Assembly (NCBI GenBank): GCA_902761755.1
Contig: CACWLP010000004.1
Span: 82,433-137,680 of the forward strand
Length of the DNA: 55,248 bases
Reading direction: 5' to 3'
Source of the DNA: an uncultured Eubacteriales bacterium
Lineage (GTDB): Bacteria > Bacillota > Clostridia > Christensenellales > Aristaeellaceae
Notes under the pieces: model-generated
Database searches by the model: none
What the model saw: only the letters and a program-made list of their open reading frames with translations
Told to the model about the DNA's origin: nothing
Position numbers and translations under genes: made by a program
Shown: positions 1 through 55,248 of the stretch, one piece after another
Numbering within the stretch: the first letter of the stretch is position 1
Layout of the letters: each line of letters starts with the position of its first letter

Positions 1-96
1 TTCATTTGCTCCTCGGCGACGTACATGCCGCCGCCTGCGGATGAGAATCGAAGGGGCTGCGGCCCCTTCGATGCATCCCCTTGGTTTTTCGACAAA
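1..96 (+). repeat. Intergenic hairpin repeat, copy A (cut by window start)
   Basis: Partial copy of a repeat family found five times in this window. Bases 1-96 are nearly identical to the reverse complement of 44433-44525. The hairpin GAAGGGGC-tgcg-GCCCCTTC at about 50-70 (HP1, cUGCGg loop in plus sense) and the GC-rich hairpin before it (HP2) are present; the rest lies before the window. A perfect GGCCCGGC/GCCGGGCC hairpin follows at about 106-127. Strand is given in the proposed transcript sense, by analogy with copies whose upstream gene is visible. Confidence 0.8.
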
Positions 97-105
97 CTGG
101 CGGGC

Positions 106-127
106 CCGGCTTTATCGCCGGGCCTGT
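106..127. terminator. Terminator-like GC hairpin without a clear U tract
   Basis: Perfect 8-bp inverted repeat GGCCCGGC-tttatc-GCCGGGCC between repeat copy A and the stop of the minus-strand gene ending at 144. Neither side has a proper T run, so termination is plausible but not certain. It could serve converging transcripts from both sides. Confidence 0.45.
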
Positions 128-9844: not shown

Positions 9845-10867
<1,023 letters not shown>

Positions 10868-41270: not shown

Positions 41271-41271
41271 A

Positions 41272-41555
41272 CCAACGAAAGCCAGCTAAAGCAGTCTTTC
41301 GTTGGAAACATCAATTTATTGTAAAAAGGCATTTCCGAGCAAGTATGCCCGGAAATGCTCTTTTTACGGCCATAAATTGATAGAGGAAGCAGTCATTCTG
41401 ACTGCCCCGGACCGGCAAACCCGGTCCTGCGGATTGTTGATGAAGGGGGCCGAAGCGCCCGAAAAATATGCCCTTTGGCATATTTTTAGCGTAGGCCGGG
41501 CCGGAAGGCCCGGGGAGCGGCCCCTTCATACTACCCCAAGGTACTTTGTCGATAA
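41272..41555 (+). repeat. Intergenic hairpin repeat, copy D (complete, composite)
   Basis: Complete copy in plus sense behind the membrane-protein gene. Hairpins in order: HP5 CCAACGAAAG/CTTTCGTTGG (41272-41305); HP4 at 41310-41381, a long stem made of 10, 8 and 9 bp segments; HP3 GCAGTC/GACTGC (41389-41405); HP2 GGACCGG/CCGGTCC (41409-41427); HP1 TGAAGGGG/CCCCTTCA (41441-41528), enlarged here by two extra hairpins (AAAAATATGCC/GGCATATTTTT and CCGGGCC/GGCCCGG). The end box CTTTGTCGATAA follows. Its reverse complement aligns with copies B and C. Confidence 0.85.
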
Positions 41556-41631
41556 TCTAAGCCGCTCTGCAATATCCTCTTTGTTTACAGGGATACTGTT
41601 TCTCATAGAAGAATGAGCGACATTGAATACC

Positions 41632-41824
41632 GGGAAACCGAAAACCCCGGGGAAGTTTGGAGGGGCCGCAGCCCCTCCAAGCGGAATCCGCAGCAGCGAC
41701 CTGTGCGCTGCGAGGAGCATTTTTGCGAAGCAGAGCATGCCCTGCGAGAGCAAGAGGAAAAGGCGTTTTTGTCGATCAAATGGAGGATCCATTTGATCGA
41801 AGGGGCTGTGCAACAGCCCCTTTT
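41632..41824 (-). repeat. Intergenic hairpin repeat, copy E (divergent)
   Basis: Most divergent copy, in minus sense behind the hydrolase gene and tail to tail with copy D. In minus order: a terminator-like hairpin (41824-41800), HP5 TCGATCAAATGG/CCATTTGATCGA (41800-41772), a shorter middle part, HP2 GCAGCG/CGCTGC (41711-41693) and HP1 TTGGAGGGGC/GCCCCTCCAA (41680-41657). HP1 has the cUGCGg loop in minus sense. The order and the boxes between hairpins show it is the same family although base identity is low. Confidence 0.7.
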
Positions 41825-41833
41825 ATAATTTGT

Positions 41834-42835
41834 TCATTCGTCCTTCAGGAAGGAAAGCACGTCGTGCCACCAGGGGAACAGCACCCCATCCTCGGAGCGG
41901 TAAATCTCGTGCCGGGCGTTTTTGACGAACACCCTTTCCCCCTGCCTGACCCGGGAAATAAACTGTTCCTGGGGCTCCGGCAGCACGCTGCCGTCCGTTT
42001 CCGCGGTATACAGCCTCACCGGGCAGGCGATCTTTTCCACCTCGCCTTTTTTCAGGATCTGTTTTGTCACCTTCATGGATTCCAGCGTCCAGCAGTAGGT
42101 GGGGCCGTTGTTGGAAAAATCCTTCCGGGAAGCCTTCACCGCGTCGTACCAGTCGAACCGGTTCCGGTCCGTGGCGCAGGAAGTGGAGAAATCCTCGGGC
42201 CCAGCGTAGGGCTTGGAAAGGAAGATCCGCTTTTTCCCCTTTCCCAGCAGCTTTTCGCCCCGGCAGATGCCCATGACGGCAAAAAGCGGAATATTGTTCC
42301 TGCAGGGAGCGATCATGGGCGCGCACATCGCGGCCTTGGCGAAGGTTTCCGGATGCTGTTCCAGATACAGCGCCGTCACCGCGCCGCCCATGGAATGGGA
42401 AAAAATCATCCAGGGCTTGGGCATGCCGGAGAGCGCCTGTTCGCATACCGCTTCCAGGTCCTCCACGTATTCCCCGAACCTGTCCACATGGGTGAGAGAC
42501 TGATCCGCCCGCACCGCTTCGTCCCGCCAGGAACGGCCGTGGCCCCGCTGATCGTAGGCCACCGCGGAAAAGCCGTTGTGCAGCAGGGAATAAATCAGCT
42601 CCGAAAACTTATAGGCGTTCTCCGTGAATCCGTGCAGCACCAGCACGGTGCCCCGGGGCGCTTCCGCATCGTAGGAAACGCAGTACAGCGCCCGGCCGTC
42701 CGCGCCTTTTACGGCAATTTCTTTTTGCTTTTCTTTCAGATACGGCAAGATCGCTTTCTCCATGGCGTCGGCATAGGCTTCGCTTTTCGCCAGATGATCC
42801 TCATTGAACCAATCGTTTTCCGCCATGTCCGTCAC
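41834..42835 (-). CDS. Alpha/beta hydrolase (serine aminopeptidase S33/monoacylglycerol-lipase type)
   Basis: 333 residues, no signal peptide. The nucleophile elbow is HSMGG, the catalytic His lies in KNARHEIYR near the end, and the acidic residue probably in AETDGS. LVLHGFTENA forms the oxyanion loop, and YDQRGHGRS is typical of monoacylglycerol-lipase-like hydrolases. The start is taken at the GTG (42835), which overlaps the transporter stop (GTGA); the ATG at 42826 is an alternative. It follows the GPH-type transporter in one operon, so it may act on the imported substrate; the substrate is unknown. Confidence 0.86.
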   Translation of the reverse strand: MTDMAENDWFNEDHLAKSEAYADAMEKAILPYLKEKQKEIAVKGADGRALYCVSYDAEAPRGTVLVLHGFTENAYKFSELIYSLLHNGFSAVAYDQRGHGRSWRDEAVRADQSLTHVDRFGEYVEDLEAVCEQALSGMPKPWMIFSHSMGGAVTALYLEQHPETFAKAAMCAPMIAPCRNNIPLFAVMGICRGEKLLGKGKKRIFLSKPYAGPEDFSTSCATDRNRFDWYDAVKASRKDFSNNGPTYCWTLESMKVTKQILKKGEVEKIACPVRLYTAETDGSVLPEPQEQFISRVRQGERVFVKNARHEIYRSEDGVLFPWWHDVLSFLKDE

Positions 42836-44286
42836 GCTTCCCCGTCTTTCCGGTTGAGGATCTTGTCATAAATCTTCTTTTCGTTATACTTTGTGAACAG
42901 CAATCCGCCCACGATACAGGCGACCGCCGCCACAATGGCGATCAGGCGATAGCCCAGGCCGGTGCCGTTCTTCGCCGCTTCGATCAGCGCGGCTTCGTTA
43001 TCCTCCATGCCCGCGGGGATCGGCGCTCTGCCGATGGTACCCAGCGAAGTCACCAGCAGCATGGCGATGGCCTGGCCCATTTTCATGGAGAACGTACGGG
43101 CGGCGTAGAACATGCCGCTGCGGTTTTCCTTGGTGTCCAATTCATCCGCCTCGGCGATATCCGCCACCACCGCCTGGGGCAGGATGCCGAAAATCGCCAT
43201 GGCCGGCGCCGCCAGCACGCAAAGGATATAGCCCTGCACTTCCGCCGGGATCGGCAGGGCCGACCCCATGCACGCCGTATACCCGAAGGCCACGGTAAAG
43301 ATGCAGAAAGCGATCAGGATCAGCTTCTTTTTCCCGAATTTCGGCGTCAGCTTGCTCACCAGCGGATAAAACAGCACCGAAAGCGCCGTCATCCCCACAA
43401 AAAAGATGGAGGACATGCCGTCGCTCAGCTTCAGCAGGCCGGTGACGAAATACAGCATAGCGGTCTGAAACATGGTAATGCCCAGGAAATACACGATATC
43501 GGAGGATACAAAAATCCGGAAGGATTTATTCCTGAAAGTAGCCGATACGGATTTGAGGGCGGTGGATTCGCTGGGCTGCGCGGTTACGTATTCCTTTTCT
43601 TTGATGGTGAATACCGGCACGAACAGGCACACCAGCGCGATCAGGGCCATCACGGTGTAGGTGAGCCGCAGGGCCATCACCCGGTCTCCTCCCACCATGG
43701 GCTGAACCATGTTGCCAACCATGGGCGCCATATAAGCGATTGCCATGCCCGCGATGAAGGTGAAGGAAATGGAAGTGGAAATGGCCATGCGCGTTTTCTG
43801 ATCGGTGCCCAGTTCGGGAATCAGGGCGTTATAAGGCGTGCAGTACATGGTCATGAACAGGTAGAACAGCGTCAGCATCACGAACAGGAACAGCGCATTG
43901 ACCCAGCTTTGTCCCTGAATGGGGCACCAGAAGGTAAGGATGGTAGCGGCAGCGAACGGAACGGCGGCGATGCGCATGAAGGGGATGCGGCGGCCGTCCT
44001 TGGCCTTGCTGCGATCCGATTTCGAAGCGATCCACGGATCCGTCACCGCATCGAAGATCCGGCCGAAGGCGGTGATGGCCCCCAGGATGGTCAAAATGCC
44101 CAGGATCACCCGGCCCTGGGGAATGAAAATGATGTTGATGGGGTTTTCAGCCGTCAGATCCGGCTGATAGAACGCCACCAGGAAGCTGGAAATCAGGGCG
44201 CTCAAAAGAGACCAGCCCAGCTGACCGATGGCAAAGTACCAAATGATTTTCCGGGTGACAGGTTTTTTCCTTATTTCCACATTCAT
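42832..44286 (-). CDS. GPH-family (glycoside-pentoside-hexuronide) sodium or proton symporter
   Basis: 484 residues with twelve predicted membrane spans. Typical family motifs: AFGRIFDAVTDPWIASKSDRSK between the first spans, MYCTPYNALIPELG and, in the second half, ADIAEADELDTKENRSGMFYAA. Members import sugars and their derivatives. GAGAGGGG lies just upstream of the ATG at 44286. The promoter at 44338-44366 lies about 55 bases upstream, so this is the first gene of an operon ending with the hydrolase. Confidence 0.9.
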   Translation of the reverse strand: MNVEIRKKPVTRKIIWYFAIGQLGWSLLSALISSFLVAFYQPDLTAENPINIIFIPQGRVILGILTILGAITAFGRIFDAVTDPWIASKSDRSKAKDGRRIPFMRIAAVPFAAATILTFWCPIQGQSWVNALFLFVMLTLFYLFMTMYCTPYNALIPELGTDQKTRMAISTSISFTFIAGMAIAYMAPMVGNMVQPMVGGDRVMALRLTYTVMALIALVCLFVPVFTIKEKEYVTAQPSESTALKSVSATFRNKSFRIFVSSDIVYFLGITMFQTAMLYFVTGLLKLSDGMSSIFFVGMTALSVLFYPLVSKLTPKFGKKKLILIAFCIFTVAFGYTACMGSALPIPAEVQGYILCVLAAPAMAIFGILPQAVVADIAEADELDTKENRSGMFYAARTFSMKMGQAIAMLLVTSLGTIGRAPIPAGMEDNEAALIEAAKNGTGLGYRLIAIVAAVACIVGGLLFTKYNEKKIYDKILNRKDGEA

Positions 44287-44337
44287 ACCCCTCTCATGAT
44301 CGGCGAAGACTCGCCTTTATTCTGCTCTGATAAATAC

Positions 44338-44366
44338 AGTATATCATATATCCCGCCGCAAAACAA
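44338..44366 (-). promoter_or_regulatory. Promoter of the GPH-transporter operon
   Basis: On the minus strand TTGTTT (44366-44361), 17-base spacer, TATACT (44343-44338) with an extended TGA before it. It lies directly behind the terminator at 44369-44401. Confidence 0.65.
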
Positions 44367-44368
44367 GC

Positions 44369-44401
44369 AAAAAATGGACGATCTTTGAACAGATCGTCCA
44401 T
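44369..44401 (-). terminator. Terminator behind repeat copy B (end of the era transcript)
   Basis: Perfect 11-bp stem ATGGACGATCT/AGATCGTCCAT with a 6-base loop, followed on the minus strand by six T (44374-44369). A transcript leaving era would pass through repeat copy B and stop here. Confidence 0.85.
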
Positions 44402-44432
44402 TGCATGGCGTCAATTTTGTCGACTCCTTTAG

Positions 44433-44652
44433 TCTATCGAAAAACCAAGGGGATGCATTGAAGGGGCCGCAGCCCCTTCGATTTTCATCCGCAGGCGGCG
44501 GCATGTACGTCGCCGAGGAGCAAATGAAATTTGCTTCCGCTATCAATTTCTGGCCGCAAAATGAGCGTTTTCGCTGGCGAAAATGCCATTTTGCAAGAAA
44601 ATCCTTTCTTCCGCTTTTTTCGCAAGGTGTCGAAAACTCTATTTTCGACACC
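44433..44652 (-). repeat. Intergenic hairpin repeat, copy B (complete)
   Basis: Complete copy that begins four bases behind the era stop. In minus order: HP5 GGTGTCGAAAA/TTTTCGACACC (44652-44626), HP4 with base stem GCAAAATG/CATTTTGC and tip CGTTTTCG/CGAAAATG (44594-44556), HP3 AGCAAAT/ATTTGCT (44535-44519), HP2 GGCGGCG/CGTCGCC (44514-44494), HP1 GAAGGGGC/GCCCCTTC (44479-44460) with a cUGCGg loop in minus sense, then the box reading TCGATAGACT in minus sense. The first 90 bases match copy A closely and the core matches copy C. Confidence 0.85.
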
Positions 44653-44656
44653 CTGT

Positions 44657-45556
44657 TTACCGGTTCTGCACGTACCCCAGGGTTTTCAGGTCCTCGGCGC
44701 TGTCCCGCCAGCCGGGGCGCACCTTCACCCACAGCTGCAGGTTCACATGGGTATCCAGCAGCCGTTCGATATCCGCCCGGGCCTCCGCGCCGATCTTCTG
44801 CAGCATGGCGCCCTTTTTGCCGATGATGATGCCCTTGTGGGACGCCCGTTCGCAGTAGATGGTGGCGTCGATCTCGGTAAAATGATCGTTGATTTTCTTT
44901 ACCGCCATCATTTCCACGCCGATGCCGTGGGGCACCTCGTCCCTTAGGTTCCGCAGGGCCTTTTCCCGGATCAGTTCGGCGCAGATGTCCCTTTCCGGCT
45001 GATCGGTGAGCATATCGTCAGGGAAATACTTGGGGCCCTCCGGCAGATGGGCGGTCAGCTCCTTTTTCAGCTGCTCCACCCCATCCCCGGTGCGGGCGCT
45101 GACGGGGATGATGCCGTCGTATTTGCAGTCCTTGAAAGAATCAATGATCCCCAGCAGAGCCTGGGGCTCCACCAGGTCGATCTTGTTGAGCACCAGCAGC
45201 CTGTACACCTTTTTCCGGCTCATTTCCTCCACGATGGCGCGGTCGTGGGGCCCGATGGCGGTGACGTCCACCAGCACCAGCAGGGCGTCGATGCCCTCCA
45301 TGGCTTCCTCGATGGACTGCACCATGTATTCCCCCAGCTTCGTCCGGGGCCGGTGGATCCCCGGCGTGTCCACAAAGACGATCTGGCAGTTTTCGCCGCC
45401 CATCACGCCCATCACCCGGCTGCGGGTGGTCTGGGGCCGGCTGGAGGTGATGGCCACCTTTTCCCCCACCAAAGTATTCAGCAGGGTGGATTTCCCCACG
45501 TTGGGCCGCCCCACGATGGTGGCGAAGCCCGAGCGGAACGCTTGCTTGTCCGTCAT
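44657..45556 (-). CDS. era: GTPase Era
   Basis: 299 residues. Era binds 16S rRNA and helps 30S assembly. GTPase motifs GRPNVGKST (G1), DTPG (G3) and NKIDL (G4); C-terminal KH domain with the family signature IIGKKGAMLQKIG. The start at 45556 follows GGAAAGGGA and is four bases after the ybeY-cdd fusion. This gene order is the standard Firmicute cluster. Confidence 0.98.
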   Translation of the reverse strand: MTDKQAFRSGFATIVGRPNVGKSTLLNTLVGEKVAITSSRPQTTRSRVMGVMGGENCQIVFVDTPGIHRPRTKLGEYMVQSIEEAMEGIDALLVLVDVTAIGPHDRAIVEEMSRKKVYRLLVLNKIDLVEPQALLGIIDSFKDCKYDGIIPVSARTGDGVEQLKKELTAHLPEGPKYFPDDMLTDQPERDICAELIREKALRNLRDEVPHGIGVEMMAVKKINDHFTEIDATIYCERASHKGIIIGKKGAMLQKIGAEARADIERLLDTHVNLQLWVKVRPGWRDSAEDLKTLGYVQNR

Positions 45557-45560
45557 TTTT

Positions 45561-46463
45561 TCATTCCCTTTCCTGCAGGATCTCCGTCATGCCGCTGGCG
45601 GGGCCGAAGCCATGGGGCAGCAAATCGGACAGGAGCGCCGCTTCTTTCTTGTCTTCCCAGCCCACGATCACCCGCAGGTCCGGCGCGAATTCATACAGCG
45701 CCTGGCGGCATACGCCGCAGGGCCAGGCCATCGCTTTTTCCGCGGTGATGGCGATGGCAATAAACTCCCTTTCCCCCTCGCTGACCGCCTTGAACAGCGC
45801 CGTGCGTTCGGCGCAGTTGGAGACGCCATAGGAGGCGTTTTCGATGTTGCAGCCCGTATAGATCTTCCCATCCCGGCACAGCAGCGCCGCGCCCACCTTG
45901 AAGTGGGAATAGGGGGAATAGGAAAAGGCCATCGCTTCCCGGGCCTTCTCGATCAGCTCTTCGTCGGTCACCCGGCTGATCCCGGCGTGCCGAAGTGCTT
46001 TTTCTTCCATATCGCGCATCCTCTCTTTATCTTTTTCGTTCATATGATCGTATCCCATCAGGTGAAACAGGGCGTGGGCGGTCAGGTACGCCAGCTCCCG
46101 GTTCAGGCTGTGGCCGTATTCCTCCGCCTGCTCCCGGGCGCGCTCCAGGGAGATCACGATGTCCCCCAGAAAGCAGCGCCCCGTTTCGTCCATTTCCCTT
46201 TTCAGCCTGTCCTGCCGCTTGCCCAGGGTGCATCCTGGGTCCGCGTTCACGGAAGGGAAGGACAGCACGTCCGTGGCCCGGTCCACGCCGCGGTATTCCC
46301 GGTTGATTTCCCGGATTTCCGCATTGCCGGTCACCCGCACCTGGGCATAGGCCGGCAGGGTGATCCCTTCCGCCCGGACGCAGCAGGCGGCCACCCGCAG
46401 CAGCATTTCCTCCGCTCCCGGCAGCGCCTCCGCTTCCCATTCGAACGTCAGCAGCCCGCTCAT
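45561..46463 (-). CDS. Fusion of endoribonuclease YbeY and cytidine deaminase
   Basis: 300 residues in one frame. Residues about 1-165 are YbeY, the metal-dependent RNase for 16S rRNA 3' maturation: REINREYRGVDRATDVLSFP and the zinc motif HALFHLMGYDH. Residues about 168-296 are a homotetrameric cytidine deaminase: YSPYSHFKVGAALL, CNIENASYGVSNCAERTA with the zinc Cys and catalytic Glu, and PCGVCRQ with the other two Cys. In most Firmicutes ybeY, dgkA and cdd are separate genes at this place; here dgkA is gone and ybeY is joined to cdd. Both active sites look intact. The start overlaps the pgpH stop (ATGA). Confidence 0.94.
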   Translation of the reverse strand: MSGLLTFEWEAEALPGAEEMLLRVAACCVRAEGITLPAYAQVRVTGNAEIREINREYRGVDRATDVLSFPSVNADPGCTLGKRQDRLKREMDETGRCFLGDIVISLERAREQAEEYGHSLNRELAYLTAHALFHLMGYDHMNEKDKERMRDMEEKALRHAGISRVTDEELIEKAREAMAFSYSPYSHFKVGAALLCRDGKIYTGCNIENASYGVSNCAERTALFKAVSEGEREFIAIAITAEKAMAWPCGVCRQALYEFAPDLRVIVGWEDKKEAALLSDLLPHGFGPASGMTEILQERE

Positions 46464-48856
46464 GGCTTTTCCTCTTGTCCGCCGTCCTCCTTTTTGGGCA
46501 GCGGCTCGATGTTCACCAAGGTGTCGATGGCGACGGGCGTCACCGTGGGCGGCGGCGCCACGGTGCGCACTTCCGGCGCGGCCTCCAGCGTCACGGTGGG
46601 CATCGCCTCCCGGGGCGCCAGCTCCACCTTGGGCAGCTTGCTTCCTTCGGGCGTCACGATGGTCACGGCGTCTTCCCTTTCCATTTCCATTTCCGCCGCT
46701 TCCATCTGGTCCTGCCTGGCCTGCTGCTTTACTTCATCCAGGTCCGGGTATTCGATCCGTTCGTGGAACACCCCCGCCAGCACCTGGGTGGCGGCGGCGC
46801 AGATCTTGTCGATGTCCCGCAGCGTCAGGGGGCTGTCGCTGAGCTGGCCGTCCTCCAGCTTGCCCCGCACCAGCTTGACGATGAATTCCTCGATCCCTTC
46901 GGTGGTGGGGTTTTTCATGGTGCGTACGGCGGCCTCGATGGTATCGCACAGCATAATGATGGCCCCCTCCTTGCTCCTGGGAGGATGCCCATCGTAACGG
47001 AAAGCGTCTATGTCCACCGGCTTGCCGTCCGCCATCTGCAGCGCCTTATGATAGAAGAACATGACGGGGGTATTGCCGTGGTGCTCGCCGATAATGTCCT
47101 GCACAGCCCGGGGCAGCCGGTATTGCTTGGCCATGGCCACGCCGTCCCGGGTATGGGCGGTGAGGATCGCGGCGGATACGTAAGGATCGGTATGATCGTG
47201 GGCGTTGATGCCGCCCATCTGGTTTTCCGCAAAGAAGGAAGGCCGCTTCAGCTTGCCGATATCGTGATAATACCCGCCCACCCGGGCCAGCAGCGGATTG
47301 GCGTTGATCGCCTCCGCCGCGGCTTCGGCCAGGCTGGCCACGATAGTGCTGTGGTGATAGGTGCCCGGCGCTTCCAGAAGCAGCCGGCGCAGCAGCGGCT
47401 GATTGGGATTGCTCAGCTCCATCAGCTTCATGGGGGTCGCCAGGTTGAAGATCATTTCCAGCAGCGGCTGGAACCCGACGCACAGAAGCGTGCCCACCAG
47501 CGTGCCGCCGGCGCGCCAGGCGGCGCTGATCAGCGCCCCGTTGAGGGATTTGGCCGTCATCAGGCCCAGGGCGATCATCACCGCCGCATCCGTCGCCGCC
47601 GCCGTCAGGCCGGACAGCAGCATCCACAGCCTGCCGGCCTTCCGGCTGGTCATCAGGGCCGCCACCGTGCCGGAAATCAGGCCGCAGACCATCAGCACGG
47701 CCATTTTTTCCGCGTATTCATCGCTGCCGCCGGCGCACAGCGCCGCCACCAGGATGGTCAGCGCCGTATTGCACACCAGCGCGGGCCTGAGCCCCAGCAG
47801 CGCGGTGCACAGCAGCGCGCAGAGCACCATGGGCGCCATGTAGGCGTTCACCAGCCGGGCCAGCACGCTCAAGAGCAGCACCAGCGTCAGGATCACAAAC
47901 ATGAGGATCGTCCGGTCCGTATCCGACAGCACCTGATCCTGCTGCAGGTTTTTCAGCCGCCACAGCATGGCCGCCATCGTCAGGATCACCAGCAGCGCCG
48001 CGCCCAGATACGTGGTCATATCCAGGCCCCCGTTGGTCAGCAGGCCCAGGCTGGAAAGCATGTCCAGCTGCCCGGCGGTGATTTCTTCATCCCGGTTCAC
48101 AATGACCTGCCCCTGCTTGTAGATCACCGGCTCCACCGCGTCCCGGGCCGCCTGGCGCGCGGCTTCCGTGGCCTCCTGGTCAATCAGGATATTGGCCCGG
48201 ACGCAGGCGTTGAGCACCGGGCGGATCACCCATTCGGTGAGGGTCCTGAAATCGTTGCCGTAGCTGATGACCTGGTAAACGGCGGCCACCGTCTCGGCTT
48301 CTTTCCCTTCCTTCACGCCCTGCTGCATAAACAGCTGCAGGTTCTGATAGGTCAGGGCATAGGCTTTTTCCAGGTCGGCGGCGTTGCTGTGCAGCAGCGC
48401 CGTGATCTGGGGATCGTTCAGCGTCACCAGCGTCAGCAGCTCCCGTGCGTTCTGCTTTTCCTGTTTGGAATACATCCGGGTGGCGCTCTGGCCGGGGAGG
48501 GTGTCGCCGTAATAAATCACGCTGCGCAGCTGGGTGAAGATCTCGTCCAGGTCGGCGAGCACCGCTTCCGTGATTTCGTCGTCCTGATCCTGATATTTGG
48601 TTTCCCGGGCGGCGGCTTCATCCTGCAGCTTCCGGGTGGTGTTTTCATCCACCACGTCCTTGGTGGCGGCGATGGTGGCGGGCGACGGCTCGCCGAGCTG
48701 CAGATTATACCGGGCCGGAATGATGGCCGCCACGAACACAGCCAGGATCACCGCGATCCCCGCCATGCACAGCAGCATCCGCGCCGTCAGGGAGGATTTC
48801 AGGTATTCGCTGAAGCTCTTCCTTTTTCTGCCCGGTCCGTCATTTTGCCGCTTCAC
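46460..48856 (-). CDS. pgpH: 7TM-HD phosphohydrolase, c-di-AMP phosphodiesterase PgpH type
   Basis: 798 residues. PgpH-type proteins hydrolyse c-di-AMP with a cytoplasmic HD domain. The order is: membrane helix, an extracytoplasmic 7TMR-HDED domain (about 40-285), six or seven membrane spans (about 285-480) and the HD domain with GTYHHS, YYHDIGKLKRP and GEHHGN (about 495-690). After the HD domain is an acidic, Pro/Thr-rich tail of about 100 residues that ordinary PgpH proteins lack. Start overlaps the phoH stop (ATGA). Its place between phoH and ybeY is conserved across Firmicutes. Confidence 0.94.
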   Translation of the reverse strand: MKRQNDGPGRKRKSFSEYLKSSLTARMLLCMAGIAVILAVFVAAIIPARYNLQLGEPSPATIAATKDVVDENTTRKLQDEAAARETKYQDQDDEITEAVLADLDEIFTQLRSVIYYGDTLPGQSATRMYSKQEKQNARELLTLVTLNDPQITALLHSNAADLEKAYALTYQNLQLFMQQGVKEGKEAETVAAVYQVISYGNDFRTLTEWVIRPVLNACVRANILIDQEATEAARQAARDAVEPVIYKQGQVIVNRDEEITAGQLDMLSSLGLLTNGGLDMTTYLGAALLVILTMAAMLWRLKNLQQDQVLSDTDRTILMFVILTLVLLLSVLARLVNAYMAPMVLCALLCTALLGLRPALVCNTALTILVAALCAGGSDEYAEKMAVLMVCGLISGTVAALMTSRKAGRLWMLLSGLTAAATDAAVMIALGLMTAKSLNGALISAAWRAGGTLVGTLLCVGFQPLLEMIFNLATPMKLMELSNPNQPLLRRLLLEAPGTYHHSTIVASLAEAAAEAINANPLLARVGGYYHDIGKLKRPSFFAENQMGGINAHDHTDPYVSAAILTAHTRDGVAMAKQYRLPRAVQDIIGEHHGNTPVMFFYHKALQMADGKPVDIDAFRYDGHPPRSKEGAIIMLCDTIEAAVRTMKNPTTEGIEEFIVKLVRGKLEDGQLSDSPLTLRDIDKICAAATQVLAGVFHERIEYPDLDEVKQQARQDQMEAAEMEMEREDAVTIVTPEGSKLPKVELAPREAMPTVTLEAAPEVRTVAPPPTVTPVAIDTLVNIEPLPKKEDGGQEEKP

Positions 48857-49839
48857 GGTTCCATCCCTTCCTTCGTTTCATAGGCCTCATATGCCCGCAC
48901 GATCCGCTGCACCAGGTCGTTGCGCACCACGTCCCGGGCGGTCAGCTCCACGATGCTGACCCCGGGAATATCCCGCAGCACGTCGATCGCTTCCACCAGG
49001 CCGCTTTTGCGGCCCTTTGGCAGGTCGATCTGGGAAATATCGCCGGTCACGATGCACCTGCTGCCCGCGCCCATGCGCGTTAAAAACATCTTCATTTGTT
49101 CCGTGGTGGTGTTCTGCGCTTCGTCCAGGATAATAAAGGCGTCCGCCAGGGTGCGGCCCCGCATGAACGCCAGCGGGGCTACCTCCAGGGTGCCGCGCTC
49201 CGTAAGCCGCTGATAGCTTTCCACGCCCATGATCTCATACAGCGCGTCGTACAGCGGCCGCAGATAGGGGTCTACCTTCTGGGTCATGTCCCCCGGCAGG
49301 AAGCCCAGCCTTTCCCCGGCCTCCACCGCCGGGCGGGTCAGCACGATGCGCTCCACTTCCTTGTTTTTCAGCGCCACAACGGCCAGGGCCATGGCCAGGT
49401 AGGTTTTGCCCGTTCCGGCGGGGCCCACCGCCACGGTCAGTTCGTTCTGCCGCACGGCGTTCACGTATTCCCGCTGCCCCAGGGTCTTGCACTGGATGCG
49501 GCGCCCCCGGTGGGTGATGGCCACCACGTCCCCCAGGATCTCCTCCATCTGGTCCAGCTTTCCTTCCCGGGCCAGGGTGACGGCGTAGCGGATGCGGGCG
49601 GCGTCCACGTATTCCCCCCGGCGCAGCATGCCGATCAGCTTTTCGATCACCTGCTCCGCCAGCGCAATATCATTTTCGTCGCCCTGGATGTGCAGCTCCT
49701 GGCCGCGCAGGGCGACGGAAACGTTCAGCTCCTGCTCCAGCGCCGCCATGTTCCGGTCGTTCATGCCGAAGAGGGAAAGATAGGTTTCCATATTTTCAAG
49801 TGTCAGCTGCAAAAATAAGTGCATCTCCTTCAGTGTCAT
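48853..49839 (-). CDS. phoH: PhoH-like P-loop ATPase
   Basis: 328 residues. Walker A motif GPAGTGKT, Walker B ADAFIILDEAQN and the C-terminal sequence GRKSGLVEAIDVL with ARDVVRNDLVQ fit the PhoH ATPases of the ybeY cluster, thought to be RNA helicases or nucleases acting with YbeY in RNA processing. Its stop overlaps the PgpH start (ATGA). A poor ribosome-binding site precedes the ATG at 49839, but coupling to yqfD 18 bases away is possible. Confidence 0.95.
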   Translation of the reverse strand: MTLKEMHLFLQLTLENMETYLSLFGMNDRNMAALEQELNVSVALRGQELHIQGDENDIALAEQVIEKLIGMLRRGEYVDAARIRYAVTLAREGKLDQMEEILGDVVAITHRGRRIQCKTLGQREYVNAVRQNELTVAVGPAGTGKTYLAMALAVVALKNKEVERIVLTRPAVEAGERLGFLPGDMTQKVDPYLRPLYDALYEIMGVESYQRLTERGTLEVAPLAFMRGRTLADAFIILDEAQNTTTEQMKMFLTRMGAGSRCIVTGDISQIDLPKGRKSGLVEAIDVLRDIPGVSIVELTARDVVRNDLVQRIVRAYEAYETKEGMEP

Positions 49840-49857
49840 TGCGGACGCCCCGCCGCT

Positions 49858-51003
49858 TTATCTTTTCACGAAACGCCCGATATCCCGCCGGACTTCGGCC
49901 ACCGCCTCGGCCCGTACAGCATCCCCTTCTATCATACTGAAATTGATCCATTTGTCAACTGTTTCATCCCCGGAAAGGGCTTCCGTCAGCAGCCGCATGG
50001 CCGCTGCGGCGCATTCCCGTTTCGTTTCCTCCGCGTCCCGGGGCGTCCTTTCCGCCGACGCCTCCCAATACGTTTCCCTCCGCAGCCGCACCGGCGCCCA
50101 TGCGCCGCCAAGGGGCAGCGTTTCCGTTTCCAGATCCCAGGTAAGATACGACGGCTGTTCCCTGGGGCTCCAGGAAAGGAACGGCGTTTCGATCACCCAC
50201 CTGCCCTCTCGCCTTCCGGTGGGCGACGTTTTTTCCTCCCACAGCGGCATTTGGCACCGCGCCGCGACCCAGACCCGGGCGACGGCCTCGCCCCGGGCCT
50301 TCACGGGATGCATTCCGCCGTCCCGTCCCCTCTCCTCTCCCCGGATCAGCACCTGACCGGCGCGCACCAGATCCCCCGCCTTTGCGGCGGGCGTGCCGGC
50401 ATATACCGTCAGCCGCAGCAGGATCCCGTCCTCCGCGGCCACCACGTCCCCGTTTTCCCCGCGGGTTTCCACCTGCGGCGCGCGCACCCCTTCATCCAGC
50501 AGGATGCGCAGCGTCACCCCGGCCCATTCCGTCCGCACCCATTGCACCGCGGGCCAGCGCCATTCCATTTCCTCCCGCAGCGCGGATAGATCCACCTCCG
50601 AACGCAATATGCCGGGGCGGATGCCCTTCTCCTCCAGGAAAGTCCGCACATCCGCCCCGTAAGCACCCGCGTTTTCGATCTGCACCCGCCAAACAAAGCG
50701 CAGCGAAAACGCCGTCAGCACGGCTCCCAGCACCGCGCCGGCGGGCAGCCCCCACCGCGCCCGAAAAAACCGCAGCCACCGCAGCCATCCCACGGGGCGG
50801 GCCTCCCCCGTTTCGTACCCCTTCTCCCGGGCCAGGGCCGACAACGTCACGCAGTCTTTTTCCCCGCAGGTGATCTCCGCCGTCCGGCTGCCTTTCCTCA
50901 CCACCCGCATCAGGCGGATCTTCCGTTTCCCCGCTTCGTTCATCAGCCTTTCCAGGTTCAGCCCCCGGACGGTGAAGCGCACGCGTTTGAGCCGCATGTT
51001 CAC
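49858..51003 (-). CDS. yqfD: Sporulation protein YqfD
   Basis: 381 residues. Similar in length and layout to Bacillus YqfD, a protein of the mother cell during sporulation: a cytoplasmic part (1-90), one membrane span (about 88-108) and a large C-terminal domain with VRTEWAGVTLRILLDEG and AGTPAAKAGDLVRAGQVLIRGE, the typical retention of the family. Its start overlaps the yqfC stop (ATGA). Together with yqfC it gives the best evidence that this organism makes endospores. Confidence 0.88.
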   Translation of the reverse strand: MNMRLKRVRFTVRGLNLERLMNEAGKRKIRLMRVVRKGSRTAEITCGEKDCVTLSALAREKGYETGEARPVGWLRWLRFFRARWGLPAGAVLGAVLTAFSLRFVWRVQIENAGAYGADVRTFLEEKGIRPGILRSEVDLSALREEMEWRWPAVQWVRTEWAGVTLRILLDEGVRAPQVETRGENGDVVAAEDGILLRLTVYAGTPAAKAGDLVRAGQVLIRGEERGRDGGMHPVKARGEAVARVWVAARCQMPLWEEKTSPTGRREGRWVIETPFLSWSPREQPSYLTWDLETETLPLGGAWAPVRLRRETYWEASAERTPRDAEETKRECAAAAMRLLTEALSGDETVDKWINFSMIEGDAVRAEAVAEVRRDIGRFVKR

Positions 51004-51251
51004 TGTTCCCCGTCCAGCAGGATCTGATGCACCCGGCCCCGCACGGCCAGGTCCTGCGCGCCGAAAAAGGAAAGGATCATTCCTTCCCCCAGAATGGTCA
51101 CGGTGCCTTTCGGCGTGCGCACCCGGATCTTCTCCGTTTCATATGAAAAAAGGCCGGTATGGCCCTCTATGGTCACTTCATCCCGGCCGTTCACGATGAT
51201 CCTGGGCCGCAGACAGTCCCCGCCAGCGGCGATCCATTCGCCGATCCCCAT
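51000..51251 (-). CDS. yqfC: Sporulation protein YqfC
   Basis: 83 residues from the ATG at 51251, eight bases behind GAGG; two alternative starts lie up to nine bases upstream. The sequence CLRPRIIVNGRDEVTIEGHTGL and RVRTPKGTVTILGEGMILSFFGAQDLAVRG match the YabP/YqfC family of small sporulation proteins. It heads the cluster of yqfD, phoH, pgpH, ybeY-cdd and era. In Bacillus the pair is read by the mother-cell sigma factor SigE; I see no certain SigE promoter here. Confidence 0.88.
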   Translation of the reverse strand: MGIGEWIAAGGDCLRPRIIVNGRDEVTIEGHTGLFSYETEKIRVRTPKGTVTILGEGMILSFFGAQDLAVRGRVHQILLDGEQ

Positions 51252-51289
51252 GCCCATCACCTCGGGGCAGTATATGCGGTTTTTGCGGC

Positions 51290-51322
51290 AAAAAAGAACA
51301 GGGGCGGCTTAAGCGCCGCCCC
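51290..51322 (-). terminator. Terminator of the HPr-like gene
   Basis: On the minus strand GGGGCGGC pairs with GCCGCCCC across a 6-base loop, followed by TGTTC and six T (51295-51290), 18 bases behind the stop at 51341. Confidence 0.85.
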
Positions 51323-51340
51323 CGGGATGCTCCGCACCGG

Positions 51341-51568
51341 TCAGATGGTGAACTGCTGAATATCGGCCACCAGATCGTCGCAGTTGTCGTCATACACGTC
51401 CAGCGTAATGGGCTTGCTCAGATCCAGGGAGAAAATGCCCAGAATGGACTTGGCGTCCACCACATGGCGGCCCGCCCGCAGGTCCACTTCGTAGGGATAC
51501 CGGTTCACCGTATTGACAAACGCCTTGACTTCCTCGGCATAATTCAGCCGGATGGGAATGGATTTCAT
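51341..51568 (-). CDS. HPr-like small protein without the active-site histidine
   Basis: 75 residues from the ATG at 51568, with GAGGAGG nine bases upstream. The C-terminal part, DAKSILGIFSLDL, matches the HPr segment around Ser46 (LKSIMGVMSLGI), and the length and beta-alpha pattern fit. The region that would hold His15 (GIHARPA in Bacillus HPr) reads NYAEEVKAF, so it cannot carry phosphate from enzyme I. It may instead be a regulatory HPr-like protein, comparable to Crh; that is inference. Confidence 0.8.
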   Translation of the reverse strand: MKSIPIRLNYAEEVKAFVNTVNRYPYEVDLRAGRHVVDAKSILGIFSLDLSKPITLDVYDDNCDDLVADIQQFTI

Positions 51569-51594
51569 CTTCGCGCACCTCCTCAATTACGGCT

Positions 51595-51623
51595 ATTATA
51601 CCGCATCGATTGCCCGTTTGCAA
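51595..51623 (-). promoter_or_regulatory. Promoter of the HPr-like gene
   Basis: On the minus strand TTGCAA (51623-51618), 17-base spacer, TATAAT (51600-51595), about 27 bases before the start. Confidence 0.8.
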
Positions 51624-51675
51624 GGGATCGGATGGAAAAATCTTATCGTTTTTTGCCGTTTTTTCAATCGTCGCA

Positions 51676-53127
51676 TCAGCCCAGCTTCGCAATGGACGCC
51701 CGCAGGCGGCGCAGCGTTTCCTCCCGGCCCAGCAGGTAGGCGATCTCGAACGCGCCGCCGGGAGTGCTCTCCTGGCCGGAAATGGCGATGCGCATGGGCC
51801 AGAGCACCTGGCCGTTCTTCTTCCCCCACGCGGGGATCTTCGCCATCACCGCGTCGTGGATGGCCGCCTCCGTCCATTCGGGAACGCTCTCCAGCACGGG
51901 CAAAAGCTGCGGCAGCACTTCCCGGGCCACCGTTTCGTCGCTCTTCTGCTTTTTGTTGAAGAAGATGGCGGGATCGTAATCCGGCATTTCCGCCAGGAAC
52001 GCGATCTTCTCCGGGATGCGGCTGAAAATGTCCGTGCGGCTCTGCATCAGCTCCGCCAGGCGGCGGTAATCGGTGCCCTTCCCGGCCAGCACCTTGTCGA
52101 ACCAGGGCGCGGCCATTTTCAGGTAGTCCTCAAAGTCCATCTTCTGCACGTACTGGCCGTTCATCCACTCCAGCTTGGTCACGTCGAAAATGCCCGGGGA
52201 CTTATTCAGGTGCCGCACGTCGAAGGCCTGGATCAGCTCGTCCATGGTGAAGAACTCCTGGTCCGTGCCGGGATTCCAGCCCACCAGCGCCAGGTAATTG
52301 ACCAGCGCTTCCTTCAGAAAGCCCTTATTGATGAAATCGCTGTAATAGGCGTCCCCGTCCCGCTTGGAGAGCTTGTGCTGGGCGTCCCGCATCACGGTGG
52401 TGAGGTGGATATACTGGGGGATCTCCCAGCCGAAAGCATTGTAGAGGAAATTGTACCGGGGGGTGGAGGACAGGTATTCCGTGCCCCGCATCACGTGGGT
52501 GATCCCCATCAGGTGGTCGTCGATGACGTTGGCGAAATTGTAGGTGGGCATGCCGTCCTGCTTGATGAGCACCATATCGTCCATGGTGTCGGCGTTGGGG
52601 AAGGTCATATCCCCAAACACCAGGTCGTGATAGCTGGTGCTGCCTTCCGTGGGCGCGTTCATGCGGATCACGTAGGGCACGCCTGCGTCCAGCTTTGCCT
52701 GCACTTCTTCCTTGGAAAGGCTCAGGCAGTGCTTGTCGTACTTGAACACCTCGCCCCGTGCTTCCGCCGCGGCGCGCCTTTCGTCCAATTCCTCCTTGGT
52801 GCAGAAGCAGTAATACGCCGCGCCTTTTTCCACCAGCTGCTGCGCGTAGGGCAGATACAGGCTCTTGCGCTCGCTCTGGATATAGGGGCCGAAATCGCCG
52901 CCGATATCCGGGCCCTCGTCCCAGAGGATGCCGCAGTCCCGGAGGGTATCGTAGATGACCTCGGTGGCGCCGGGAACAAAGCGCTCCTGGTCGGTGTCTT
53001 CAATGCGCAGGATAAATTTTCCGCCGTTTTTCTTGGCGAACAGGTAAGCGTACAGCGCCGTGCGCACGCCTCCCAGGTGCATGAAGCCCGTGGGCGACGG
53101 GGCAAAGCGGGTGCGGACTTGAGTCAT
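51676..53127 (-). CDS. gltX: Glutamyl-tRNA synthetase
   Basis: 483 residues, bacterial class I. The HIGH-type motif is HLGG in RFAPSPTGFMHLGG and the KMSKS-type motif is KLSKRDGD. The start at 53127 follows AGGAGG; the long upstream frame runs into the leader. It lies 131 bases behind glnS in the same direction, the space holding a 20-bp palindrome. With a separate GlnRS next door, this enzyme probably charges only tRNA-Glu, but this depends on residues that cannot be judged by eye. Confidence 0.96.
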   Translation of the reverse strand: MTQVRTRFAPSPTGFMHLGGVRTALYAYLFAKKNGGKFILRIEDTDQERFVPGATEVIYDTLRDCGILWDEGPDIGGDFGPYIQSERKSLYLPYAQQLVEKGAAYYCFCTKEELDERRAAAEARGEVFKYDKHCLSLSKEEVQAKLDAGVPYVIRMNAPTEGSTSYHDLVFGDMTFPNADTMDDMVLIKQDGMPTYNFANVIDDHLMGITHVMRGTEYLSSTPRYNFLYNAFGWEIPQYIHLTTVMRDAQHKLSKRDGDAYYSDFINKGFLKEALVNYLALVGWNPGTDQEFFTMDELIQAFDVRHLNKSPGIFDVTKLEWMNGQYVQKMDFEDYLKMAAPWFDKVLAGKGTDYRRLAELMQSRTDIFSRIPEKIAFLAEMPDYDPAIFFNKKQKSDETVAREVLPQLLPVLESVPEWTEAAIHDAVMAKIPAWGKKNGQVLWPMRIAISGQESTPGGAFEIAYLLGREETLRRLRASIAKLG

Positions 53128-53152
53128 AAGAAAAACCTCCTGTATTATGTTT

Positions 53153-53194
53153 GCGGGGGAGACGTTCTTTGGGGCCAAAGAACGTCTCCCCCGC
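53153..53194. repeat. Perfect 20-bp inverted repeat between glnS and gltX
   Basis: GCGGGGGAGACGTTCTTTGG, a two-base centre (GG) and the exact reverse complement. No T run follows, so it is not a standard terminator. It may be a REP-like palindrome, a transcript-stabilising hairpin or a cruciform-forming site; the sequence shows only the symmetry. Confidence 0.9.
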
Positions 53195-53258
53195 GCCCCC
53201 TCCAAGAAAGCGATCCCGGGACAGGAGCATGATCGTTCTTTGATTGTGTTTGTCCCCT

Positions 53259-54959
53259 TTATTTCTGGGGCTTGTAGCTGTCCTTCAGGCTCACCACGCG
53301 GTTATAGACGCTCTTTTCCGCCGTGGAATCCTTGTCCTTGCAGAAATAGCCCATGCGCAGGAACTGGAAGGTATCGCCCACCTTGGCGTGCACCAGGGTA
53401 TGCTCGCACCAGCCGTTCTTCACGATCAGGGAATCGGGGTTCAGGAAACGGCGGAAGGATTCAAAGTCCTTCTTTTCCTCGGCGGGCGCGCTGTCCCATT
53501 CCTCGGTCATCAGCTGATCGTACAGCCGGGCTTCGAAGGCCGCGCAGTCCCGGGCGTTGACCCAGTGGATGGTGCCCTTCACCTTGCGGTCGGCCCCTTC
53601 AGAGCCGGAACGGGAGGAAAGGTCAACGGTGCATTCCAGGCGGTCGATGCCGCCCTCCGCGTTCTTCACCACGTTTTCGCACTTGATGATGTACGCGCCC
53701 TTGAGGCGCACTTCCCCGTCGGGCTTGAGGCGGAAGAATTTTTTCGGCGGGTCTTCCTCGAAATCTTCCCGTTCGATCCAGATCTCCCGGCTGATGGTCA
53801 CCTGCCGCGACCCCATTTCGGGATGGTCGGGATGGTTTTCCATGGTCAGGGTGTCGCTCCAGTCCTCGGGCACGTTGGTGAGCACCACCTTCACCGGGTT
53901 GAGCACCGCCATGACCCGGGGTGCGGTCTCGCCCACGGATGCGCGGACGCAGGCGTCCAGCATCTGCACGTCCACGGTGGAATCGGCTTTCGCCAGGCCC
54001 ACCTGGTCCACGAACGCGCGGATGGCGCTGCCGGGATAGCCGCGGCGGCGCATGGCGCACAGCGTGGGCATCCGGGGATCGTCCCAGCCGCTGACCAGGC
54101 CTTGCTCCACCAGGTAGCGCAGATACCGCTTGCTCATCAGCGTGCGGGTGATGTTGAGCCGAGCGAATTCGATCTGCCGGGGGCCGAAATAGCCTTTCCC
54201 GTCCCCCTTGCGGAAGCCCGCCTTTTCCACAAACCAGTCGTACAGGGGGCGGTGATCCTCAAATTCCAGGGAGCAGAGGGAGAAGGTGATGCCCTCGAAG
54301 GCATCGGAAAGGGGGTGGGCAAAATCGTACATGGGATAGATGCACCATTTGTTCCCCGTGCGCCAGTGCTCCTTGTAGAGGATGCGGTACATGGCGGGGT
54401 CGCGCATGTTCATGTTGGGGGACGCCATGTCGATCTTCGCCCGGAGGATGTAGCGGCCCTCGGGGAATTCGCCGTTTTTCATGCGGCGGAAAAGATCCAG
54501 GCTTTCTTCCGCGGGCCGGTCCCGCCAGGGGGAATTCTTGCCCGGGGCGGTGAGGGTGCCGCGGTATTCCCGCATTTCATCGGCGGAAAGCTCGTCCACG
54601 TAGGCAAGGCCCCGCTGAATGAAATCCTCGGCGATATCGTACAGCCGCTGATAGTAATCGCTGGCGTAATACAGCCCGCCCGTCCAGTGGAAGCCCAGCC
54701 ATTCGATGTCCCGCTTGATGGCTTCCGCGTATTCGGTGTCTTCCTTGGCGGGGTTGGTGTCGTCAAAGCGCAGGTTGCAAAGCCCGCCGTATTTTTCCGC
54801 CGTGCCGAAATCCGTCACCAGAGCCTTGCAGTGGCCGATGTGGGGATAGCCGTTGGGTTCGGGAGGAAAACGGGTGTGCACCTGCTGGGCGCGGCCCTCC
54901 GCCAGATCCTGGTCGATGGCGTCCCAGATAAAGTTGCTGCGCGCGTTTTCGTTTTCCAT
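53259..54959 (-). CDS. glnS: Glutaminyl-tRNA synthetase
   Basis: 566 residues from the ATG at 54959, eight bases behind GGAGG; the upstream start candidate (54977) is within the ribosome-binding site. FPPEPNGYPHIGH contains the HIGH motif, LMSKRYLRYL the KMSKS motif, and RFDDTNPAKEDTEY is typical of GlnRS. The beta-barrel C-terminal domain is complete. Most Firmicutes have no GlnRS and make Gln-tRNA by amidation; this one has it, directly ahead of gltX. Confidence 0.96.
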   Translation of the reverse strand: MENENARSNFIWDAIDQDLAEGRAQQVHTRFPPEPNGYPHIGHCKALVTDFGTAEKYGGLCNLRFDDTNPAKEDTEYAEAIKRDIEWLGFHWTGGLYYASDYYQRLYDIAEDFIQRGLAYVDELSADEMREYRGTLTAPGKNSPWRDRPAEESLDLFRRMKNGEFPEGRYILRAKIDMASPNMNMRDPAMYRILYKEHWRTGNKWCIYPMYDFAHPLSDAFEGITFSLCSLEFEDHRPLYDWFVEKAGFRKGDGKGYFGPRQIEFARLNITRTLMSKRYLRYLVEQGLVSGWDDPRMPTLCAMRRRGYPGSAIRAFVDQVGLAKADSTVDVQMLDACVRASVGETAPRVMAVLNPVKVVLTNVPEDWSDTLTMENHPDHPEMGSRQVTISREIWIEREDFEEDPPKKFFRLKPDGEVRLKGAYIIKCENVVKNAEGGIDRLECTVDLSSRSGSEGADRKVKGTIHWVNARDCAAFEARLYDQLMTEEWDSAPAEEKKDFESFRRFLNPDSLIVKNGWCEHTLVHAKVGDTFQFLRMGYFCKDKDSTAEKSVYNRVVSLKDSYKPQK

Positions 54960-55015
54960 TGCCGATCCCTCCTTCAAAAAGAATACGTGAATACGCGCCG
55001 AAAGGCGCTTTCAAC

Positions 55016-55044
55016 ATTATATCGGGAAAAACCCAAAAATACAA
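55016..55044 (-). promoter_or_regulatory. Promoter of glnS
   Basis: On the minus strand TTGTAT (55044-55039), 17-base spacer, TATAAT (55021-55016), about 57 bases before the glnS start. It lies directly behind the terminator at 55046-55076. Confidence 0.75.
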
Positions 55045-55045
55045 G

Positions 55046-55076
55046 AAAAAAATGCCCGGGTCTATGCTGGGCATTT
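55046..55076 (-). terminator. Terminator behind repeat copy C
   Basis: On the minus strand AAATGCCC pairs with GGGCATTT across an 11-base loop, followed by seven T (55052-55046). It ends a transcript entering from beyond the window through copy C. Confidence 0.75.
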
Positions 55077-55080
55077 CAGA

Positions 55081-55248
55081 CTGTCGACAAAGCATCCTGG
55101 GGAAGTATGAAGGGGCCACAGCCCCTTCATCAATAATCCGCAGGCGGCAGCGTGTACGTCGCCGAGGAGCAACAGAATGTTGCTTCCTCTATCAATTTCT
55201 GGCCGTAAAATGAGCGGTTCCGGCAAAATATGCCGGAACTGCCATTTT
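55081..55248 (-). repeat. Intergenic hairpin repeat, copy C (cut by window end)
   Basis: Contains the end box TGTCGACAAAG, HP1 GAAGGGGC/GCCCCTTC (55108-55127), HP2 GGCGGCA/CGTCGCC (one mismatch), HP3 AGCAAC/GTTGCT, and HP4 with tip GCGGTTCCGGC/GCCGGAACTGC; the remainder lies outside. Its core is nearly identical to copy B; the left box is closest to copy D. Minus is the proposed transcript sense because the terminator (55046-55076) lies at its HP1 end. Confidence 0.8.

Follow-up and report, generated by a model that had tools for sequence, protein, structure and literature searches.

The window, a stretch of 55,248 nucleotides analysed as a whole, contains five copies of a repeat composed of ordered hairpins (Table 1). 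The original prediction had recognised these five copies, all of which are matched by a covariance model, and the stem sequences that it quoted are present by eye as written, while several of its details required correction. Its common order of parts does not extend to copy E, a distinct longer subtype without the TATCAATTTMTGGCCG box, and copies A and D lie on the minus strand. Its hairpin HP5 mixes two structures, namely the terminal hairpin (HP6) in copy B and the hairpin before it in copy D. The element is also larger than the limits it had been given and extends from CAG..TGTCGA to TCGACACCCTG. Inside the window, only B and D are near-complete copies.

Table 1. Copies of the element and associated hairpins in the window
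Feature	Position	Strand	Description
Copy A	1..99	-	Model match 1-76, cut by the window edge; left part of the element: left end CAGTTTGTCGAAAAACC, HP1, ATCCGCAG, HP2, start of HP3
Target hairpin of copy A, one copy	101..127	.	27-base repeat with a few mismatches, abutting both ends of the whole copy (L009)
Copy D	41271..41556	-	Model match 41309-41469, ends set by eye; left end, HP1, ATCCGCAG, HP2, HP3, closing helix with HP4, HP5; terminal hairpin HP6 absent
Nested hairpin module within HP1 of copy D	41448..41516	+	Expands HP1; limits approximate
Copy E	41570..41824	+	Model match 41653-41798, weak (44.6 bits); limits approximate; HP1, ATCCGCAG, HP2 and HP3 present, closing helix and ends different (by eye)
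Copy B	44430..44655	+	Model match 44453-44603; from left end TAGTCTATCGAAAAACC to terminal hairpin GGTGTCGAAAACTCTATTTTCGACACC
Target hairpin of copy C, left copy	55050..55076	.	AAATGCCCGGGTCTATGCTGGGCATTT; partner at the end of contig C3
Copy C	55077..55248	+	Model match 55103-55248, cut by the contig end; from left end CAGACTGTCGACAAAG into HP4

Past the left edge of the window, copy A continues in G000:C4 as far as about 82330 and is interrupted by an assembly gap (NNNNN); the second copy of its target hairpin lies outside the window, past the right end of the element. In other copies, relatives of the module nested in copy D occupy the interval from HP2 to HP3 and have the opposite orientation relative to the element. 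The flanks of copy B were searched for a duplication and none was found. For copy C, the hairpin partner on contig C3 adjoins a right half-element and is identical at 25 of 27 positions, with a score of 21 (next-best contig end, 4).

A typical full element measures about 230-260 bp, is bounded by terminal inverted repeats like CAG..TGTCGACAAAG, and contains the conserved core boxes ATCCGCAG and TATCAATTT..GGCCG. The claim that its stems co-vary is borne out by pairing far beyond chance. When 48 copies are aligned with MAFFT by sequence only, 97.6% of cells pair, whereas shuffling gives 86.5% (0/500) and sliding no more than 51.9%, and 26 of 45 pairs show changes on both sides; these controls model the relatedness of the copies only partly. 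Of 66 sequences, 56 were kept, and the alignment (A1) comprises 48 of these; the eight left out by hand (L114, L122, L124, L130, L136, L145, L160 and L209) mostly have another left module or are without HP1. Of the box matches, 143 were discarded for lack of ATCCGCAG, 34 for lack of the closing arm and 21 as duplicates, which left a set of 82 distinct cores; 72 of these cores were parsed, and for each of HP1-HP4 the arms of the same copy pair better than arms of different copies (0/5000 permutations each).

Covariation across hairpins and conserved boxes are consistent with a view of the repeat as first of all a family of structured RNA (cis-regulator or sRNA), its repetition being incidental; the original prediction had spoken of selection for folding in RNA or single-stranded DNA. 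The plus-strand fold is more stable in 65 of the 82 cores, and G-U accounts for 5.5% of pairs on the plus strand versus 3.6% on the other, which points in the same direction; however, this strand bias is weak evidence since the copies share ancestry and a large part of the G-U excess comes from a single column pair. Such a family is improbable given that copies sit between duplicated target hairpins and have ends resembling those of transposons (see below), and that no clear orientation toward neighbouring genes was seen among 34 copies in a crude ORF-based test, in GC-rich DNA with unreliable ORF calls. The repeat had been thought to belong to no named family, and this view holds: at gathering score, an Rfam scan of the window returned only a tRNA, on which ground a known structured RNA family was rejected, and six loci scanned at relaxed score gave sub-threshold matches only.

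Another view of the fold, which leaves the question of mobility aside, is that a mutational process, through template switching between arms or hairpin exchange between copies, keeps the stems matched in place of selection on the fold. In HP3 and the closing helix, double changes occur and G-U intermediates are few, which would fit this process, as would the equal rarity of G-U and A-C cells (23 each by hand count, outside columns 94-171 and 120-148) and the many combinations in which HP2 and HP3 types are found. Acting alone, however, it would not be expected to keep the order of the hairpins and the single-stranded boxes across genera, and it is considered a possible but somewhat unlikely origin of the pairing.

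Dozens of genome copies had been expected, and the covariance model finds at least 77 matches in the host MAG, with 150 of 1502 candidates scored. The element is present in 37 of 100 sampled genomes of the host family, which consists of uncultured gut Clostridia (29 candidates scored per genome), the folded core in 23 of 50 sampled genera of that family, and 0 of 98 other genomes sampled from the host class contain the element. A weak DNA match (E 5e-5) occurs in G057, a member of another family of the same order. At 28 metK loci, the covariance model, which replaced a loose core pattern giving spurious matches in the spacers, finds the element only in the host genome and in G009, with one weak partial match at L272. 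A further 9 loci, which have the same methyltransferase as their neighbour, are all empty sites from which the element is absent.

Duplication of a flanking hairpin was found in 28 of 44 two-ended copies, in the form of a direct repeat of 19-37 bases located at most 4 bases from both ends; at the chosen cut-off it was not detected in 16 of the 44. These copies are those in loci L001-L213 with two ends matching the end patterns (44 of 45 rows, the extra row being a second start for L002), and L087 and L177 among them have identical flanks. The sequence of the duplicated hairpin varies between loci, and in the 28 copies the repeat folds with a mean of -16.6 kcal/mol versus -5.4 when shuffled. 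When left flanks were paired with right flanks of other copies as a control, 0 of 352 combinations gave a duplication, with a maximum score of 7. A T tract or A tract, as in terminators, stands just outside the hairpin in 16 of 28 cases, versus 1 of 28 at forty bases further out. Eight left half-elements lie at contig ends and were compared with 10 right halves by the hairpin alone: three, including copy C of the window, have a single unique partner each (scores 21-25, next best 4-7), and the remaining five find no partner, with scores of 4-5.

Exact hairpin duplications also flank 4 of 6 examined IS1182 copies in related genomes, namely L307 (31 bases), L245 (33), L244 (22) and L314 (20), while the hairpins on either side of L309 differ from each other, and L315 showed no right end and no duplication. 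Outside these six, L311 is broken by stops, and L308, L310, L312 and L316 are without a flank. Four scanned transposases reach 410-440 bits on NF033551 (cut-off 270), and one of them has relatives encoded in L244 (73% identity) and L245 (72%), both from the genus to which the window belongs. The element end CAGACTGTCGACAAAG has similar counterparts among the IS ends, for example CAGACCATCAACAAA and CAGACCGTTGACAAA. In G027, element L091 and IS L245 have 16 of 18 bases in common at one end (E 0.026); near the opposite end 13 of 15 agree (E 1.1), and their interiors match over short stretches only. Terminal inverted repeats common to the element and IS1182 are short and partial, with weak E-values, and similar ones are found in other IS copies. 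Ends of this type occur in 5 of 30 fetched PF05598 loci (L215, L216, L217, L223 and L227), the others being fragments, cut by contig ends or of other kinds.

Element and IS1182 are found together in G020, G027, G075, G144 and G145. Over 100 family genomes, the element and PF05598 have 37 and 39 carriers, with 14 carrying both and 14.4 expected. Among these genomes, 10 of the 21 with IS1182 protein matches below E 1e-20, a cut-off of our own choice, carry the element, with 7.8 expected. Neither comparison, both counted by hand, gives a genome-level association. In the host MAG, which is 73% complete, there are 0 matches to an IS1182-type gene or PF05598. Other machines might move the element, such as a group IIC intron-like retroelement, an IS200/IS605-type transposase or a palindrome-duplicating Cas1-like integrase, given that terminators are the targets of group IIC introns and that Cas1 duplicates palindromic repeats. 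This is very improbable, as IS1182 transposons from genomes of the host family have ends like those of the element and are likewise flanked by hairpin duplications, and no Rfam intron match was found in the window or in the six scanned loci.

Terminal inverted repeats, duplication of the whole hairpin, a covarying folded core and IS1182 relatives with similar ends and exact duplications lead us to conclude from sequence comparison that the repeat is likely a non-autonomous MITE-like element mobilised in trans by IS1182-family DDE transposases. The original prediction had rightly described a family of covarying hairpin repeats and had missed the terminal inverted repeats, the target-hairpin duplications and the IS1182-like ends. 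The element, moved by an IS1182-type transposase supplied in trans, would insert at the foot of a hairpin, often a transcription terminator, and insertion would copy the whole hairpin, leaving one on each side. A terminator kept on each side of the insertion is a likely benefit and suggests a simple, harmless life in a compact genome.

The folded core would be kept by selection on the element, either helping the ends to meet in single-stranded DNA or insulating the element from passing transcription; this selection is the least certain part of the explanation. It is doubtful, though conceivable, that the conserved fold, as single-stranded DNA or RNA, recruits or guides the IS1182 transposase in a structure-for-structure transposition system, in which case hairpins would be both the body of the element and its target. 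With the folded core spread across so many genera, the question of why some non-autonomous elements keep interior structure becomes directly testable.

Among the closest known systems is IS1272 / TnSha1 of staphylococci, an IS1182-family element with 16-bp terminal inverted repeats and hairpin targets of little primary sequence specificity, several being terminators (PMC4923244, PMC5678879). As these reports describe it, IS1272 removes or replaces the target hairpin and leaves no duplication, and hairpin duplication was proposed there as pathway b (Wan 2017) and not observed. The present element is alike in its hairpin targets, several of them terminators, and in its terminal inverted repeats; IS1272, however, loses the hairpin, whereas this element duplicates it whole and carries no transposase. 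Stem-loop replacement of the IS1272 type does not fit the 28 of 44 copies that have the hairpin on both sides. The many natural cases of a variable-length target hairpin duplicated whole correspond to the route hypothesised for IS1272. Palindromic targets, a further likeness, are described for other IS1182-family members (Siguier 2015, via PMC4923244 and PMC5678879).

Bacterial MITEs are described as under 500 bp and intergenic, with terminal inverted repeats, direct repeats and a stable fold (PMC10969869), and the element has all these traits. Unlike MITEs in general, as that source presents them, its direct repeat consists of an entire hairpin whose length varies, and its interior fold is kept across many genera. 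Folded interspersed repeats are likewise intergenic, of similar size and with conserved stem-loops (PMC2267715). Compared by description only, bcr1 and other such repeats resemble the element in size, intergenic site and stem-loops. Mobile-element traits were reportedly noted for bcr1. In the open-access papers covered, we saw neither this repeat nor an IS1182 element that duplicates hairpins described. Long direct repeats may already have been recorded in ISfinder for some IS1182-family members, and the IS side of the finding would be less new if these are whole hairpins. A minor observation concerns the choice of target: L176 is flanked by two copies of a stretch holding the ATCCGCAG-HP2 part of a relict copy, and the target hairpin therefore need not be a terminator.

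Copies of the folded repeat (typically about 230-260 bp) are often flanked on both sides by the same hairpin, which varies by locus (for example, AAAGCCCTCCGGCCAGGAGGGCTTT on both sides of locus L010 and AAACGCCGTACGCGAAGTACGGCGTTT on both sides of L035). With a score of at least 13 and a distance of at most 4 bases from both ends as criterion, a flanking repeat of length 19-37 was found in 28 of the 44 copies having both ends matched, versus 0 of 352 control comparisons of left flanks with right flanks of other copies. Just outside the flanking hairpin, a T or A tract occurs in 16/28 cases, versus 1/28 forty bases further out, so that targets are terminator-like in many, not all, cases. Locus L176 is flanked by two copies of a stretch holding ATCCGCAG and the second internal hairpin (HP2) of a relict element, which shows that the target hairpin need not be a terminator. 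In the metK spacer of the host genome (L008), the element lies between two identical 22-base hairpins; among 28 congeneric metK loci, from 28 of 29 genomes, the core covariance model detected it in the host genome and in one congener (G009) only, besides a weak partial match in L272, and it was absent from all nine other loci with the same methyltransferase neighbour. Contig ends carry eight left and ten right half-elements; through the flanking hairpin, three of the left halves, including window copy C, whose partner lies at the end of contig C3, could each be assigned to exactly one right half, and the remaining five to none of the ten. Inspection by eye revealed duplicated hairpins in further genera as well (L290, L293).

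Transposons of the IS1182 family are the probable mobilisers of the element. The transposase-linked domain PF05598 is present in 39 of 100 genomes of the family Aristaeellaceae, and element-like ends occur at 5 of 30 fetched PF05598 loci, several immediately after a hairpin. Four transposases score 410-440 bits against the NCBIfam IS1182 model (cut-off 270), and within the genus to which the window belongs, full-length relatives exist in two of 29 genomes, G020 (frame with one stop) and G027. Exact hairpin duplications surround four of the six IS copies having both flanks, with lengths of 31 (L307), 33 (L245), 22 (L244) and 20 (L314); the hairpins on the two sides of L309 are unlike, and for L315 neither a right end nor a duplication was found. 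Within G027, element L091 and transposon L245 have 16/18 bases in common at one end and 13/15 near the other, with short matches only away from the ends. No IS1182 gene was found in the host genome (73% complete), and co-occurrence of element and transposase across genomes is no greater than chance.

Hairpins are also the reported targets of IS1272, another member of the IS1182 family, but are deleted or replaced there (Furi 2016 PMC4923244; Wan 2017 PMC5678879), whereas the pattern seen here, for both the element and the IS1182 transposons, is duplication of the hairpin. Further routes are drawn in Figure 13 of Wan 2017 (PMC5678879), among them route b, in which 3′ ends join the 5′ feet of stem-loops, with duplication of the entire stem-loop as the outcome; element and transposons share the pattern that this route would predict. 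The flanking repeat spans the entire hairpin at any length, which fits better with recognition of an extruded hairpin, as we infer, than with a fixed stagger. For some IS1182 members ISfinder records direct repeats that are long, and what is found here for the transposons may therefore be partly known already.

The left end of the element, CAG..TGTCGACAAAG or CAG..TGTCGAAAAACC, is followed by a GGGG or GGGATG box, HP1, ATCCGCAG, HP2 and GAGGAG-HP3-CTTCC. A closing helix, TATCAATTT..GGCCG, then encloses HP4 and is followed by HP5 and a terminal hairpin (e.g. CAGGGTGTCGACTTTGTCGACACCCTG), whose outer half forms the right inverted repeat. From copy to copy, HP4 and HP5 are entirely different and the types of HP2 and HP3 are combined in many ways; a longer subtype, comprising copy E and its relatives, has another closing helix and other ends. 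Many copies carry between HP2 and HP3 a hairpin module, AGCGCCCGGAAAA..TTTTCAGCGTAGG.CGGGCCGGAAGGCCC, which in copy D lies reversed inside HP1 and may represent another mobile hairpin, nested in the element. This core is also found with other left parts, one bearing a GGGCGCAATGATAC..TTGCGTCC hairpin and another of type GGGGGTGTCGGGGG..CCCCCGACTG; it appears that ends can be exchanged between cores.

Positions in the window and fetched loci of the features observed
Feature	Window position	Loci
Repeat array, 9- and 18-base spacing	9920-10730	
Large ORF, 785 aa	31705-34062, minus strand	
Hairpin module, ~70-80 bases	41448-41516 (copy D)	L083, L120, L125, L126, L135, L172, L183, L187, L292
Junction of copies D and E	41545-41600	
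Alternative left parts joined to core		L006, L013, L083; L122, L124, L130, L136

The compensating pairs of the original prediction are borne out by 48 copies aligned by sequence only, in which RNAalifold proposed 45 pairs: standard pairs fill 97.6% of cells versus 86.5% in 500 shuffles, 26 of the 45 pairs change on both sides, and no more than 51.9% of cells pair when the partners are slid by 1-3 columns. In 68 of 72 copies the partner matches the dinucleotide following TATCAATTT, which takes six different forms. A mutational origin of the matched arms is a serious rival to this covariation reading, not to mobility. The plus strand is more stable in 65 of 82 cores and has a small G-U excess, which together hint at RNA, but the copies are related and one column pair gives much of the excess. 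As anticipated, no Rfam family matched the repeat: a tRNA was the sole match in the window, and six loci gave sub-threshold matches only.

The host genome (2.2 Mb, 46 contigs, the window being positions 82433-137680 of contig C4) contains 47 BLASTN matches to copy B. The core covariance model, built from 48 copies, recovered all five predicted window copies and gave 77 matches (E <= 0.001; 150 of 1502 candidates scored), some partial and some overlapping on opposite strands, so that the copy number is several dozen, in line with the dozens expected, rather than exactly 77. Many host contigs are broken within copies (ends of C1, C3, C4, C5, C7, C8, C18, C24, C27, C36, C38, C39, C40 and C44). 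Copies D and E adjoin, and by eye the left hairpin of E is apparently cut by D, as though D had inserted in E's left module.

At family level, the model found the element in 37 of 100 genomes, spread over 23 of 50 genera, and a DNA search of 60 genomes matched every one of the 28 congeners plus three others, one of them (G057, from another family of the order) weakly. In a class-wide sample, three of whose 98 genomes belong to the same order, the model matched 0/98 beyond the host under stricter filters, with which weak matches can be lost. A pattern taken from the box of the element matched 106 stretches of public contigs; all 80 titles listed among these name uncultured Clostridia, Clostridiales or Christensenellaceae bacteria, and many of the names refer to gut samples of goat, sheep, buffalo or deer.

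Two other repeat-bearing features were observed in the window. The array has at least 33 overlapping copies and, by eye, abundant GGNCCN triplets, and possibly encodes a collagen-like protein. The large ORF contains repeats that reach 159 bases in length, many of them ~220-270 bases apart.
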